This document shows positions 32,048-57,222 of a stretch of DNA of 64,000 nt, piece after piece. The notes below the pieces were generated by a model. The model did no database searches and was not told where the DNA came from. It worked only from the letters and a program-made list of their open reading frames with translations. Position 1 is the stretch's first letter. Each line of letters opens with the position of its first letter. This DNA is from a bacterium. GTDB taxonomy: Bacteria > Armatimonadota > UBA5829. The DNA lies in contig JAJFVF010000002.1 of assembly GCA_021371935.1 (NCBI GenBank), positions 248,001-312,000 of the forward strand. Direction: 5' to 3'. The position numbers and the translations under genes are program-made.

Positions 32048-32122
32048 TGGAGCCGACGGAGGGATTCGAACCCACGGCCTGAGCTTTACGAAAGCCCTGC
32101 TCTACCTCTGAGCTACGTCGGC
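32048..32122 (-). tRNA. tRNA-Thr (CGT anticodon)
   Basis: A 75-base cloverleaf with a 7-bp acceptor stem GCCGACG/CGTCGGC, D-arm GCTCAGAGGTAGAGC, anticodon loop TTCGTAA (CGT), T-arm with GGTTCGAATCC, and encoded CCA. Last gene of a four-tRNA cluster. Confidence 0.95.
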
Positions 32123-32147
32123 CGGACAGCGGTAAGGCCATAATAAA

Positions 32148-32223
<76 letters not shown>

Positions 32224-32246
32224 ACGGCCCGGGCTTATGTTGCAAA

Positions 32247-32270
32247 TCGGAGGTCCATACGAACCTCCGA
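32247..32270 (-). other. Hairpin between tRNA-Asp and tRNA-Phe
   Basis: TCGGAGGT and ACCTCCGA form a perfect 8-bp stem with an 8-base loop in the spacer. No T-run follows; it may guide processing of the tRNA precursor. Confidence 0.45.
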
Positions 32271-32275
32271 CCAAA

Positions 32276-32352
32276 TGGCGGGGATGACGAGACTTGAACT
32301 CGCGGCCTCCTACGTGACAGGCAGGCGCTCTAACCAACTGAGCTACACCCCC
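32276..32352 (-). tRNA. tRNA-Asp (GTC anticodon)
   Basis: Acceptor stem GGGGGTG/CATCCCC with one G-T pair, anticodon stem-loop CCTGC-CTGTCAC-GTAGG (GTC), T-loop TTCAAGT, discriminator G, encoded CCA; 77 bases. Confidence 0.95.
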
Positions 32353-32353
32353 A

Positions 32354-32429
32354 TGGTGGGCGAAGAGGGACTTGAACCCCCGACATCTTCCTTGTAAGGG
32401 AAGCGCTCTCCCAACTGAGCTATTCGCCC
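32354..32429 (-). tRNA. tRNA-Val (TAC anticodon)
   Basis: Acceptor stem GGGCGAA/TTCGCCC, anticodon stem-loop CTTCC-CTTACAA-GGAAG (TAC), T-loop TTCAAGT, encoded CCA; 76 bases. First gene of the cluster, one base from tRNA-Asp. Confidence 0.96.
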
Positions 32430-52947: not shown

Positions 52948-53117
52948 AATTGAGTCCTCCTCAGTCGTCTGATAAGGCGTCAAAATATTTGTGCGGCCAG
53001 GCCAGTTGAACGCTCCCAAGCCACTGATATTCCAATTATCGGAGAAACAAGTATTTTCTTCAGGTGAGGAGCACTTATAGTGTGGCATAAACTATTTGAA
53101 TAAAGCTCAGGCCGAGG

Positions 53118-53217
53118 CCTGAACGCACGAAAAGGCAAACCACGGGAAACTTTGGGGCGCAAAGCTATTGGGGCTACACCTCGATCTTCGAGACATGCTT
53201 GCCAGGCTGCCGAAGCG
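53118..53217 (+). ncRNA. Cyclic-di-GMP-I (GEMM) riboswitch aptamer
   Basis: The conserved core is present in order: AAAGGCAAACC (53131-53141), a hairpin capped by GGAAAC, GGGGCGCAAAGC (53154-53165), GGGGCTACACC, a CTCGA/TCGAG hairpin, and GCTTGCCAGGCTGCCGA (53198-53214), the 3' side of the P3 stem that carries the tetraloop receptor. It lies on the plus strand upstream of the HD-GYP/GGDEF gene. Confidence 0.85.
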
Positions 53218-53267
53218 AACACACCTTATCGTCCGAATGAATGGGCTGCAGGTTTAGGATGATAGGG

Positions 53268-53301
53268 TGGCGTTGGCTACGACAGCCTGGCATTTTGTTG
53301 T
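53268..53301 (+). terminator. Possible expression platform of the riboswitch
   Basis: GGCT/AGCC at 53275-53286 forms a short hairpin (flanks GCGTT and TGGC extend it weakly), followed by ATTTTGTTGTTT. This is a plausible but weak ligand-controlled terminator. Confidence 0.4.
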
Positions 53302-53316
53302 TTGGGAGTTGGTAGT

Positions 53317-53526
53317 ATGCTAAACATTTATGAACCAGTAGCAGAGTCGGGATTTGTTCAATTAGGCATGAAGGCAGGTGGTCGTGGTGTGCGTGCAAAA
53401 AACGATTGTGCCGCGCCGTCTACCGCCAAACAGGTTCTCTTCCTTGTCGAGAGTGCATACGACGTAAGTGATGAGGTCGTTTCCTCCGGCACTGACTCAA
53501 CACCCTCAAAGTTCAGAGGGCACTAA
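53317..53526 (+). CDS. Small ORF between riboswitch and HD-GYP gene (doubtful)
   Basis: ATG at 53317 with GGGAG upstream opens a 69-codon frame (MLNIYEPVAESGFVQLGMK...). It has no recognisable domain, signal or bias. It may be a leader peptide controlled by the riboswitch, or chance. The gap 52948-53557 holds no other gene candidate. Confidence 0.25.
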   Translation: MLNIYEPVAESGFVQLGMKAGGRGVRAKNDCAAPSTAKQVLFLVESAYDVSDEVVSSGTDSTPSKFRGH

Positions 53527-53557
53527 TAGGATCGTAATATGGGCATCTTGCCCTGAA

Positions 53558-55429
53558 ATGAGAGCCGATATGAATGCAAGAGCAATAAAGCGAGTCAAGG
53601 TGGTCATTGGATTAGCGGCCTGTGCTGCGGTAATCGGCATCTTGGCTGTTGGTGATGGTTATAGCCGCGGTTGGCTGGGTGTATGTTTGTGGTTGGGACT
53701 GGCAGTTCTGCTGTGCAATCAGGTTGATTTGTCGGCTGCTCAGTGCAAATCCGAAACCGATGAAAAAGACGCCAGCAAGCAACTGGCGGATGTATATCGG
53801 AGCACTGCCGAAGCACTCGCCTGTGCGATAGCCGCCAAGGACTCATATGAGCAGGACCATGTCCTCAGAGTCAAAACGATCTGTGAGTTGGTCGGGCGTG
53901 CCATGGGCTTGAATGAAAATGAACTTAACGGCATTCGTATTGCAGCGCTTGTTCACGATGTTGGCAAGTTGGGCGTACCTGAATATATTCTGCTCAAGCC
54001 GGGGCCTCTGGATACGGAGGAATTCGGCAAGATGCGCAATCACACCACAATTGGTGCTCGCATACTTGAGCAGGTCGAATATCCATGGAATGTCACCGAC
54101 ATGGTGCGCCATCATCATGAGAACTATGACGGTTCCGGTTACCCGGACCATCTATCGGCTGAAAATATACCGGTTGGCTCTCGGATAATTTCCGTTGCGG
54201 AGGTCTATGACTCTCTTGTCTCGACTCGCTGTTATAAAGATGGATGGTCTCATGAGGATGCAGTAGAGCATATAAAGAAACTCTCTGGAGCGCAGTTTGA
54301 CCCGGAAGTGGTTGCAGCGTTTCTCGATGTGGCTGATCAGGTGAAGGATATGGACAGACAGCGTAGACCACTGCCTTCGTGTGAGGCTTCAACCGAGAGT
54401 TTTGGAGCAGCAGACCTGATTGCCCAGGCTAATCATGAGCTAATATCGATTTTTGAGATAGCTCAAACTCTTTCGAGCACACTGGAGCTTGATGAGGTGC
54501 TGGCACTGTTGGCACACAGGACCAAAAGGCTCAGTGATGCAGCAACATGTGTTGTATTTCTTGTCGATGAGCTGCATCCTCATATGTTGACGGCCAGGGC
54601 GTCTGCTGGCCGCTGGAATGAGATATTCAAGGGTGCAAGTGTGAAGCTGGGAAAAGGTGTGACAGGAAAGTCTGCGGCGCATGCAAGCACATTTGTCGGC
54701 AACTATGATCCGAACGATCTGGTATTAGGTATGGAGGGCCATATTGCATCGAATTTCAAGTCATCTCTGGTGGCGCCGATATCCAGTTTTGGACGGGTTC
54801 TTGGGACAATCAATCTATATGATGATGCGCCTCATGCTTTTTCTGGCGATGATTTGCGCACGATGACATTTGTGGCAAACACTGCGGCAATGGCTATTCA
54901 GAACGCAAGCGCATTTGAACAAGTGAGAGACTCGGCTGTAAGAGACCCTCTGACGGGTTTACACAACGGCAGGTATTTGCGAACGTATTTGGAGCGGGAG
55001 CTTCGCCGGGCATCAAGACGAAATGGACAGCTCTCTGTTATCGGAATAGACCTTGAAAATTTCAAGGCAGTCAACGATTCTCTGGGGCATCAGAGGGGTG
55101 ACAGTGTACTGAAAGATGCCGCCGACATATTTGTAAATCAGCTCAGGGATTATGACCAGGTGTTCCGCAACGGCGGTGACGAGTTTGTTGTAGTGCTGCC
55201 CGACACGCCCGCAAGTGAGGCGGAAAGAATAGCAAAGAGAATTCAGCAAGTTGTCGGGCAATACGCTGAGCAGTATACCGACAACGCCACCATGGCGCTG
55301 TTTGGCGCGAGTGTGGGGATCGCAACATATCCCAAAGATGCAGGTGATCTCGAATCGCTGCTTGATACAGCGGACGCGGCTATGTATAGGGACAAGCGCG
55401 CGCGAAAACGAGGTCGACTGGCTGCCTGA
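53558..55429 (+). CDS. Membrane HD-GYP / GAF / GGDEF cyclic-di-GMP enzyme
   Basis: A 623-residue protein with both halves of cyclic-di-GMP metabolism. Two short membrane helices (residues 14-55) precede an HD-GYP phosphodiesterase domain with LVHDVGKLGVP, HHHENYDGSGYP and the rest of the metal site. A GAF domain follows (LDEVLALLAHRTKRLSDAAT onward, about 290-450). A GGDEF cyclase domain (DPLTGLHNGRYLRTYLEREL, intact RNGGDEFVVVLP) ends the protein. The start is chosen at ATG 53558; 53570 is equally possible and neither has a strong ribosome site. The cyclic-di-GMP riboswitch upstream implies feedback. Confidence 0.9.
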   Translation: MRADMNARAIKRVKVVIGLAACAAVIGILAVGDGYSRGWLGVCLWLGLAVLLCNQVDLSAAQCKSETDEKDASKQLADVYRSTAEALACAIAAKDSYEQDHVLRVKTICELVGRAMGLNENELNGIRIAALVHDVGKLGVPEYILLKPGPLDTEEFGKMRNHTTIGARILEQVEYPWNVTDMVRHHHENYDGSGYPDHLSAENIPVGSRIISVAEVYDSLVSTRCYKDGWSHEDAVEHIKKLSGAQFDPEVVAAFLDVADQVKDMDRQRRPLPSCEASTESFGAADLIAQANHELISIFEIAQTLSSTLELDEVLALLAHRTKRLSDAATCVVFLVDELHPHMLTARASAGRWNEIFKGASVKLGKGVTGKSAAHASTFVGNYDPNDLVLGMEGHIASNFKSSLVAPISSFGRVLGTINLYDDAPHAFSGDDLRTMTFVANTAAMAIQNASAFEQVRDSAVRDPLTGLHNGRYLRTYLERELRRASRRNGQLSVIGIDLENFKAVNDSLGHQRGDSVLKDAADIFVNQLRDYDQVFRNGGDEFVVVLPDTPASEAERIAKRIQQVVGQYAEQYTDNATMALFGASVGIATYPKDAGDLESLLDTADAAMYRDKRARKRGRLAA

Positions 55430-55447: not shown

Positions 55448-55630
55448 ATGAAAAGCACTTGTAGCAACTATGCTTATCGCGGGTGCCCAGCAAGCTTCTA
55501 TCTTGCGTGTCGCGGATACAAAGAGGGGCTCAACTGCTGGCAGATAAAAGAAAAACCGTGCTGTTCTAATTCTGATCTCTCAATTTGCAAGACATGTAAG
55601 GTATATATAAAGTACCACGCGACGCCATAA
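55448..55630 (+). CDS. Cys-rich miniprotein (60 residues)
   Basis: A small protein with nine Cys in the pattern C...C...C...C...CC...C..C (NCWQIKEKPCCSNSDLSICK near residues 29-48). The C(C) and CxxC groups suggest zinc or iron-sulfur binding. Similar NCW...CC...CxxC modules occur alone or attached to signalling proteins. The ATG at 55448 follows GAGAGGA. It sits between two cyclic-di-GMP-type genes, so a sensory or accessory role is plausible but unproven. Confidence 0.6.
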   Translation: MKSTCSNYAYRGCPASFYLACRGYKEGLNCWQIKEKPCCSNSDLSICKTCKVYIKYHATP

Positions 55631-55684: not shown

Positions 55685-56977
55685 ATGAAAAAAGACTCCA
55701 TACAAAATATCGATGCATGTTCCAATGCGAGGGCATCGGCAGGATTGACAATGTTCCTGATTTGCGCCGCTGGGCTGGCGTGTGTTGTATGTGCACTTTT
55801 CAGCTCGGGTCTGGAGTGGCGCATTCTATCTTTAGCCGTGCCGGCAGCGGCAGTTACTCCTTTTGTGGCGGAGGTTCGCAATCGATGGGGAAATAACACA
55901 ATATATTTTTCCCTCACTCACAGCCTGCTTTTTGCGGGTGTTCTTGCCTTAGGACCATTGGGAGCCTCGCTGCCCGCCGCGTTGGGAGCAGCCGTCCGGC
56001 TTGCAGTAGAAAGCCCTTCAAGGAAACCGCTTCACAAGGTTCTATATTCAATAGTCAAGCCTGCTGGCTTATGTTCATTTTCATCGCTTGTTTATGTGAT
56101 GCTGGGAGGCAATATAATTCGGCCACAGCAGGTCGATTCATTTGTGCCGCTGCTTTGTGCCGCCGCGGTCTACATAGGTGCAAATGCACTGCTGGCTGCT
56201 GCCGGTTCTAAGTGCCGGTCCTCTGAGCCATGTTCGGATAATCTGCCAAGCACTGTTGGCGTTGCTGCCGGCTGGTCGCTGTGTATATTTTCAGGCTATG
56301 CTCTTGCCGTGCTATATGCGATAGCTCCATCTTATGTACTGCTGGCTCTGGCCGCTCCCGCAGTGCTTGCCTGTGGGACATTATTTGCTGTTTCAAAGAA
56401 ACATGAGCAACCCTTGGACAAAGCTGAGCAAGGGCAAAACGACGAATCGCAGTCGAAAACCGAATCACCGAAATCTGACTCGGCTTTTATAGACCCAATG
56501 ACCGGACTGGCCAACAGACGTTACCTGGAATTGTTCCTAAAGAACGAACTAAACCGTTCCGAACGAGCCGAAAGGCCGCTTTCGATTGCAGTTTTTGATC
56601 TTGATGAATTCAAGAGCAGGCAGAATGTAAAAGATGAAGCTGCCGGCGAAGCGCTGGCTGCAATGGGTGAAAAGCTCAAGGCTGAAGTGCGTGACTATGA
56701 CATGGTCGCAAAATATTCCTCAACCAGGTTGGTGGCGGTGTTTCCGGAGGCTTGTGCACAAGAAGCTGAGGAGATCGCGCAGAGGCTGCATGACTGTGTG
56801 ATAAGCACTAGACTCAAAAAGAAGCCACTGTCTGTGAGTGTGGGAATATCCACATTCCCTGAGCATGGATCGACTACCGAAGATCTTATAAACGCAGCAC
56901 ACCGCGCACTTAACCAGGGGCGATTCCTTGGTCCAAACCGCGTTCACAGCTTCCGAGAACTGCAGAAGGCGAGCTGA
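55685..56977 (+). CDS. Membrane protein with degenerate GGDEF domain
   Basis: A 430-residue protein. About six or seven hydrophobic helices (residues 18-240) form a membrane sensor region resembling MASE-type domains. A GGDEF fold follows (DPMTGLANRRYLELFLKNEL, SIAVFDLDEFK). The signature is lost: the GGDEF position reads KYSSTRLVAVFPE, so it should not make cyclic-di-GMP but may bind nucleotide. KKKPLSVSVGISTFPEHGST is retained. ATG at 55685 with weak GAGATG upstream. Confidence 0.82.
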   Translation: MKKDSIQNIDACSNARASAGLTMFLICAAGLACVVCALFSSGLEWRILSLAVPAAAVTPFVAEVRNRWGNNTIYFSLTHSLLFAGVLALGPLGASLPAALGAAVRLAVESPSRKPLHKVLYSIVKPAGLCSFSSLVYVMLGGNIIRPQQVDSFVPLLCAAAVYIGANALLAAAGSKCRSSEPCSDNLPSTVGVAAGWSLCIFSGYALAVLYAIAPSYVLLALAAPAVLACGTLFAVSKKHEQPLDKAEQGQNDESQSKTESPKSDSAFIDPMTGLANRRYLELFLKNELNRSERAERPLSIAVFDLDEFKSRQNVKDEAAGEALAAMGEKLKAEVRDYDMVAKYSSTRLVAVFPEACAQEAEEIAQRLHDCVISTRLKKKPLSVSVGISTFPEHGSTTEDLINAAHRALNQGRFLGPNRVHSFRELQKAS

Positions 56978-57049: not shown

Positions 57050-57222
57050 TAGCTCGAAATATGCTCGTCGAGCATATTTCGGGTCCGGGCCGCGCATCAT
57101 TCACGTTTCTCGTGAATAATGCGCGCTAAGCAATTTACGGTCAGTAAATTGCACGTTTGTATGTGGTTTTACTGTGTGAAAAACTATAGTGGTATGCAAG
57201 CGACCAACCGTGATTTGCCTAG
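57050..57222. repeat. Composite repeat, copy 9 (modules A'-B-C with long tail)
   Basis: The longest copy. A perfect 13-bp palindrome (CGAAATATGCTCG/CGAGCATATTTCG), module B, module C (GCAATTTAC...GTAAATTGC), and a tail of about 75 bases, nearly identical to copy 2. It ends four bases before the metG stop on the other strand. Confidence 0.88.

Follow-up and report, generated by a model that had tools for sequence, protein, structure and literature searches.

A probable transcriptional ON riboswitch of the c-di-GMP-I class heading a c-di-GMP signalling operon in a little-studied bacterial phylum

Introduction

GEMM RNAs were reportedly placed upstream of cyclase and phosphodiesterase genes by Sudarsan et al. 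in 2008. On the protein side of c-di-GMP signalling, receptors that bind through an I-site and carry a degenerate GGDEF domain make up the PelD type. The position of GEMM RNAs ahead of DGC and PDE genes is known (PMC12564702), as are tandem c-di-GMP-I riboswitches as such (PMC9481103). In the Vc2 aptamer, the bases that contact the ligand are G20, A47 and C92 (PMC4744006), and one selectivity position has a role in the choice between c-di-GMP and cGAMP (PMC9481103). Both directions of switching have been described. The pilM riboswitch of Geobacter is an ON switch that follows the same strand logic as we propose here, and has been measured to work kinetically (PMC9262584), while the class I c-di-GMP riboswitches of C. 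difficile are all given as OFF switches in a passage of PMC9495176 that cites PMC6200980. Here we describe, from a bacterium of the Armatimonadota, a c-di-GMP-I riboswitch ahead of a gene for an enzyme with both HD-GYP and GGDEF domains, and compare the locus with its relatives and with these known systems.

Results

The aptamer and its expression platform

An Rfam scan of the full window, by which we mean the whole 64,000-nt stretch of DNA analysed, returned a c-di-GMP-I aptamer as its sole riboswitch. The aptamer opens the following series of features:

53124-53214, plus strand: c-di-GMP-I (GEMM-I) aptamer, RF01051, with the G of GGCAAAC and the contact regions CGCAAAGC/GCTGCCGAA present
53201-53291, plus strand: expression platform, a 91-nt terminator hairpin; the aptamer 3' strand (GCCAGGCTGCCGAAGC...) supplies its 5' arm, and CAGCCTGGC stands at the end of its 3' arm
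53292-53305, plus strand: T-rich tract ATTTTGTTGTTTGG, completing the intrinsic terminator
53317-53526, plus strand: small ORF of 69 aa, an uncharacterised conserved protein (MLNIYEPVA...PSTAKQVLFLVES) and the first gene behind the terminator
53570-55429, plus strand: membrane protein of 619 aa with HD-GYP (~53822-54310), GAF (~54482-54901) and GGDEF (~54935-55408, RDYD I-site) domains
55448-55630, plus strand: small Cys-rich protein (CSNY..RGCPAS...NCW...PCC...C..C), 18 nt behind the enzyme gene
55685-56977, plus strand: degenerate GGDEF membrane protein (PF00990, 85.5 bits) in which YSSTRL replaces GGDEF and the I-site RDYD is kept
57130-57152, plus strand: possible operon-end terminator, from a pattern scan only

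The Rfam covariance model RF01051 matches the aptamer over model positions 1-87 of 87 with 60.6 bits (E=2.2e-9), against a gathering score of 35 bits. This was one of the checks proposed in the first-pass annotation, whose reading of a recognisable c-di-GMP-I aptamer core is thereby borne out, with coordinates that were correct to within a few bases. The first hairpin of the aptamer carries a GAAA tetraloop (ACGGGAAACTTT), and the places of G20, A47 and C92, in a Vc2 numbering that we transferred ourselves, are matched by GGCAAAC, CGCAAAGC and GCTGCCG. The RNA is predicted to bind c-di-GMP. Immediately 5' of the aptamer, at 53105-53124, lies a further hairpin (GCTCAGGCCGAGGCCTGAAC) that is kept in G004 and is terminator-like on the minus strand. 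A scan for sigma-70 promoters gave no match upstream of the aptamer.

The terminator hairpin folds at -51.5 kcal/mol, its 5' arm (GCCAGGCTGCCGAAGC) includes the ligand-contact region of the aptamer, and it is followed by ATTTTGTTGTTT, with 9 T in 12 bases where 3 would be expected. The hairpin had been described as weak, a description that these values overturn; it is easily missed on inspection, since the aptamer contains its 5' arm. Folding of the leader comes out 4.9 SD below dinucleotide shuffles (z=-4.9), with the terminator as the MFE structure, and CAGCCTGGC occurs at only one more site on the plus strand of the window, where no T-tract accompanies it.

Covariation among relatives bears out the pairing of the two arms. 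Across nine genomes of the same family, in which the middle of the hairpin has almost wholly changed, arms from the same genome pair at a mean of -29.6 kcal/mol, compared with -20.5 kcal/mol for arms taken from different genomes, and 1 in 100,000 permutations did as well as the true pairing, the identity permutation being left in the count. RNAalifold on the aligned hairpins of nine genomes gives 26 consensus pairs, 10 of them with at least one double-sided compensatory change, and these changes include A-U to G-C within the arm that aptamer and terminator share. Families of the class and order that are less closely related also keep the arm CAGCC(T)GG (the CAGCCTGGC side) and the T-tract; the T-tracts of 14 relatives hold 4-9 T and are weak in some (G007, G026). 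The platform is not universal: no terminator of the window's design separates riboswitch and enzyme gene in G037 and G048.

The folding computation makes aptamer and terminator mutually exclusive, with one strand of the aptamer serving as an arm of the terminator. The energy cost of holding the aptamer pairs in place is 1-5 kcal/mol as long as the transcript ends between 53214 and 53284, rises to 9 kcal/mol at 53288, and reaches 16-18 kcal/mol from 53291 on. The decision should therefore fall as the T-tract is made, leaving ~70 nt of elongation during which the aptamer could bind its ligand. Since the equilibrium favours the terminator beyond a typical ligand binding energy, such a switch must work kinetically; and since the free RNA would terminate and the bound RNA could not, it would be an ON switch. 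We are fairly confident in reading the element as a c-di-GMP-I riboswitch that turns transcription ON at the head of a c-di-GMP signalling operon.

The HD-GYP-GAF-GGDEF enzyme and its linkage to the riboswitch

The reading frame of the enzyme is open over 53468-55429, and its start is likely the ATG at 53570, which is preceded by GAGAG. Pfam assigns HD_5/HD-GYP (117.6 bits), GAF (50.3 bits) and GGDEF (PF00990, 150 bits) domains, all well over their cut-offs, in agreement with the earlier description of an HD-GYP and GGDEF protein on the same strand as the aptamer. The N-terminus carries hydrophobic stretches that, in sequence, resemble membrane helices, and over the whole protein identity to the two nearest records of the genome collection is ~71-72%. 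Both catalytic motifs had been called intact, which is so for the GGDEF domain, where the GGDEF motif, the RDYD I-site and the guanine-binding Asp are all present; GHQRGD retains that Asp in the place where the criterion for Hypr (cGAMP-making) enzymes calls for Ser. For the HD-GYP domain the claim stands with a reservation. Aligned to the solved HD-GYP 4mcw, the ligands H, HD, H and HHE and the GYP motif are present, and the final Asp is replaced by Glu. The Asp of VADVYDAL aligns with the last metal ligand of 4mcw, and its position holds Glu in seven aligned family members and in G002, and Val in G007.

Across the phylum, a riboswitch lies upstream on the same strand, within ~1.1 kb, at 16 of 26 orthologues (16 of 23 genomes), as counted by comparing the 26 orthologue places with every RF01051 match across the same set of 61 genomes. 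Linkage is complete in the window's family (9/9: G000, G004, G001, G003, G002, G013, G010, G006, G007) and extends beyond it to G037, G026, G027, G020, G019, G048 and G022, while in G015 the riboswitches lie farther upstream of the orthologue. A genome of 2-6 Mb carries one to six riboswitches, a density at which the linkage expected by chance is almost nil. The genome of the window itself holds six c-di-GMP-I riboswitches, alongside eight GGDEF, ten HD-GYP and two EAL matches.

The small ORF and the downstream genes

A small ORF had been noticed between riboswitch and enzyme, and it proves to be a genuine gene. An alignment of 11 genomes shows the start and a PSTAxQVLFLVE core to be conserved, and pN/pS is 0.30-0.46 between the window and three members of the genus, more distant pairs being saturated; together these rule out an ORF that arose by chance. 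When 291 genomes of the phylum were searched with a profile, every match lay directly behind this riboswitch, and as the profile was built from the same 11 copies, it is the absence elsewhere that is informative. One match in G011 C90 (E=0.0025, with an internal stop) was absent with a larger alignment and was dropped. The small protein has no Pfam or NCBIfam match above cut-off, and its single-sequence AlphaFold model, with a mean pLDDT of 52, gives no usable fold. This undescribed protein, confined in this order to the position behind the riboswitch, is the most novel part of the locus.

Intergenic gaps in the operon run from 18 to 55 nt. The Cys-rich protein is weakly like the two-CW domain (NCBIfam two_CW, E=0.16 for the window copy and 0.012 for a relative, both below cut-off). 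Its gene stands in the same place in G004, G001, G003, G007 and G015, and directly behind the riboswitch in G026 and G027. The degenerate GGDEF protein recurs in G007, G015 and G018, where the I-site is again kept and the active site is altered by other substitutions. It is a candidate c-di-GMP receptor, which would probably bind the messenger through its I-site.

Other riboswitches in the window genome and its relatives

At locus L010 (G000:C2:210000-224000), a c-di-GMP-I riboswitch (G000:C2:219016-219107, minus strand) lies directly before flgM, the anti-sigma-28 gene (PF04316, 53.6 bits). In its fold the 5' strand of the aptamer pairs with GGGTTTGCC-TTTTT, and this suggests ON switching, by which high c-di-GMP would turn late flagellar genes off. 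In three genomes of the order, at L078 (G015), L079 (G017) and L080 (G018), the small ORF lies between two c-di-GMP-I riboswitches. Of these the first has the terminator, and the second is flanked on its 5' side by GATACTCC, which is complementary to GGAGTATC, the ribosome-binding stretch of the gene that follows, an arrangement that looks like transcriptional and translational control within one transcript. L012 (G000:C3:84714-85016, minus strand) holds two c-di-GMP-I aptamers ~20 nt apart, which are adjacent also in G004 and G003, and the best-scoring c-di-GMP-I riboswitch of the window genome (L009, G000:C9:172109-172194, minus strand) lies ~270 nt before a gene whose product reads like an FtsH protease. 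Elsewhere in the window, a cluster of four tRNA genes occupies 32051-32429 on the minus strand.

Discussion

The structure of the leader suggests how the operon may be controlled. At low c-di-GMP, the polymerase would make the aptamer and then its downstream complement, and the 3' strand of the aptamer would be drawn into the long terminator hairpin as the T-tract emerges, stopping transcription. At high c-di-GMP, the ligand would lock the aptamer during the ~70-nt delay before the complement exists, so that the base of the terminator could not form and the operon would be transcribed, yielding the small protein, the membrane HD-GYP-GAF-GGDEF enzyme, the Cys-rich protein and the degenerate GGDEF protein.

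The first-pass annotation envisaged a feedback loop in which the RNA controls both the making and the breaking of its ligand. The loop is upheld by the covariance model and by the linkage at 16 of 26 orthologues, but joint control is not established. Only the cyclase is kept in every riboswitch-linked orthologue readable over that stretch, each of which retains an intact (G/A)GDEF motif, I-site RxxD and guanine-binding Asp; G002, whose frame is broken by one stop that may be an assembly error, stands outside this count. The HD-GYP domain, in turn, is damaged in two linked orthologues, with HD changed to RD in G007 and to LD in G019. Together with the exchange of Asp for Glu at the last metal ligand, this pattern points somewhat more to the cyclase as the output that matters and to positive feedback, in which product inhibition at the I-site would cap the loop. 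Self-amplification by the cyclase with such a ceiling is the most likely sign of the feedback, at about an even chance, and the HD-GYP domain may be fully active despite the D-to-E change, which would reverse it.

That reversal would give negative feedback: the ON switch would drive a protein that is mainly an HD-GYP phosphodiesterase, high c-di-GMP would induce its own removal, and just when the operon is switched on, the I-site would shut the cyclase half down. The HD, HHE and GYP motifs of the window protein and most orthologues speak for such a loop, as does the RDYD I-site, through which the cyclase should be inhibited at high ligand. But G007 and G019 have lost HD-GYP catalytic residues while remaining linked to the riboswitch, the last metal ligand is changed from Asp throughout the family, and GGDEF is never degraded in the readable linked proteins; we hold stabilisation to be the less likely sign of the loop. 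In a wider and equally tentative extension of the amplifying loop, c-di-GMP would induce its own I-site-capped cyclase together with a dedicated small protein and an I-site receptor, in an RNA-gated, self-amplifying circuit found across the phylum that might act as a bistable commitment switch, with the HD-GYP domain decaying into a regulatory one.

It is unlikely that the riboswitch mainly serves the small protein, with the enzyme as a mere passenger on the transcript. The ORF does come next after the riboswitch in 11 genomes, among them G017 and G018, which show no HD-GYP-GGDEF gene in the stretch read, but elsewhere in the class the small ORF is absent, and the riboswitch stands before the enzyme or the Cys-rich gene. 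Less likely still is an OFF switch in the manner of C. difficile Cd1, with the ligand promoting termination. Many c-di-GMP-I riboswitches are OFF switches, among them all those of class I in C. difficile (PMC9495176, citing PMC6200980), but here the only strong terminator is built from the aptamer 3' strand itself, and an OFF switch would need a separate terminator and anti-terminator; we found neither and reject this reading. Least probable of all is another dinucleotide ligand, 3',3'-cGAMP, as for the Geobacter GEMM-Ib RNAs: variants of the GEMM class do sense cGAMP (PMC8835794, PMC9481103), but the base preceding CAAAC, the selectivity position, is G in the window aptamer and in all family members, for which we reject cGAMP specificity, and the window GGDEF has Asp at the site that is Ser in cGAMP-making enzymes.

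With an ON switch for c-di-GMP as the preferred reading, the locus would be a neat, testable example of an RNA that senses a messenger and gates the enzyme for that messenger, conserved across a little-studied phylum. Its natural variants, with the HD-GYP domain intact or broken, could settle whether the loop amplifies or stabilises.

Parts of this design are already published, namely the placing of c-di-GMP-I riboswitches before genes for cyclases and phosphodiesterases (PMC12564702) and the aptamer-strand ON design (PMC9262584); a literature search found no paper that joins the c-di-GMP-I riboswitch class with Armatimonadetes. With Vc2 and Vc1 of V. cholerae (RF01051) the window riboswitch has the aptamer fold, the contact positions and the placement ahead of genes in common, and it differs from them in host phylum and expression platform. 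The c-di-GMP-I-GGC family (RF03167) belongs to the same clan, and the orthologous riboswitch of locus L007 scores slightly above its cut-off, whereas the window copy is matched best by RF01051. Among proteins, known HD-GYP and GGDEF enzymes share the domain set, the GAF sensor and the I-site with the window enzyme, whose family differs in having Glu as the last HD metal ligand. The protein at 55685-56977 resembles PelD-type receptors in keeping RxxD and losing the active site. The pilM riboswitch of G. metallireducens (GEMM-Ib) is a transcriptional ON switch in which the aptamer strand itself builds the terminator (PMC9262584), as is proposed for the window riboswitch. It differs in its ligand, cGAMP, and in its selectivity base, A where the window has G, and it stands ahead of pilus genes, whereas the much longer terminator of the window stands ahead of signalling enzymes.
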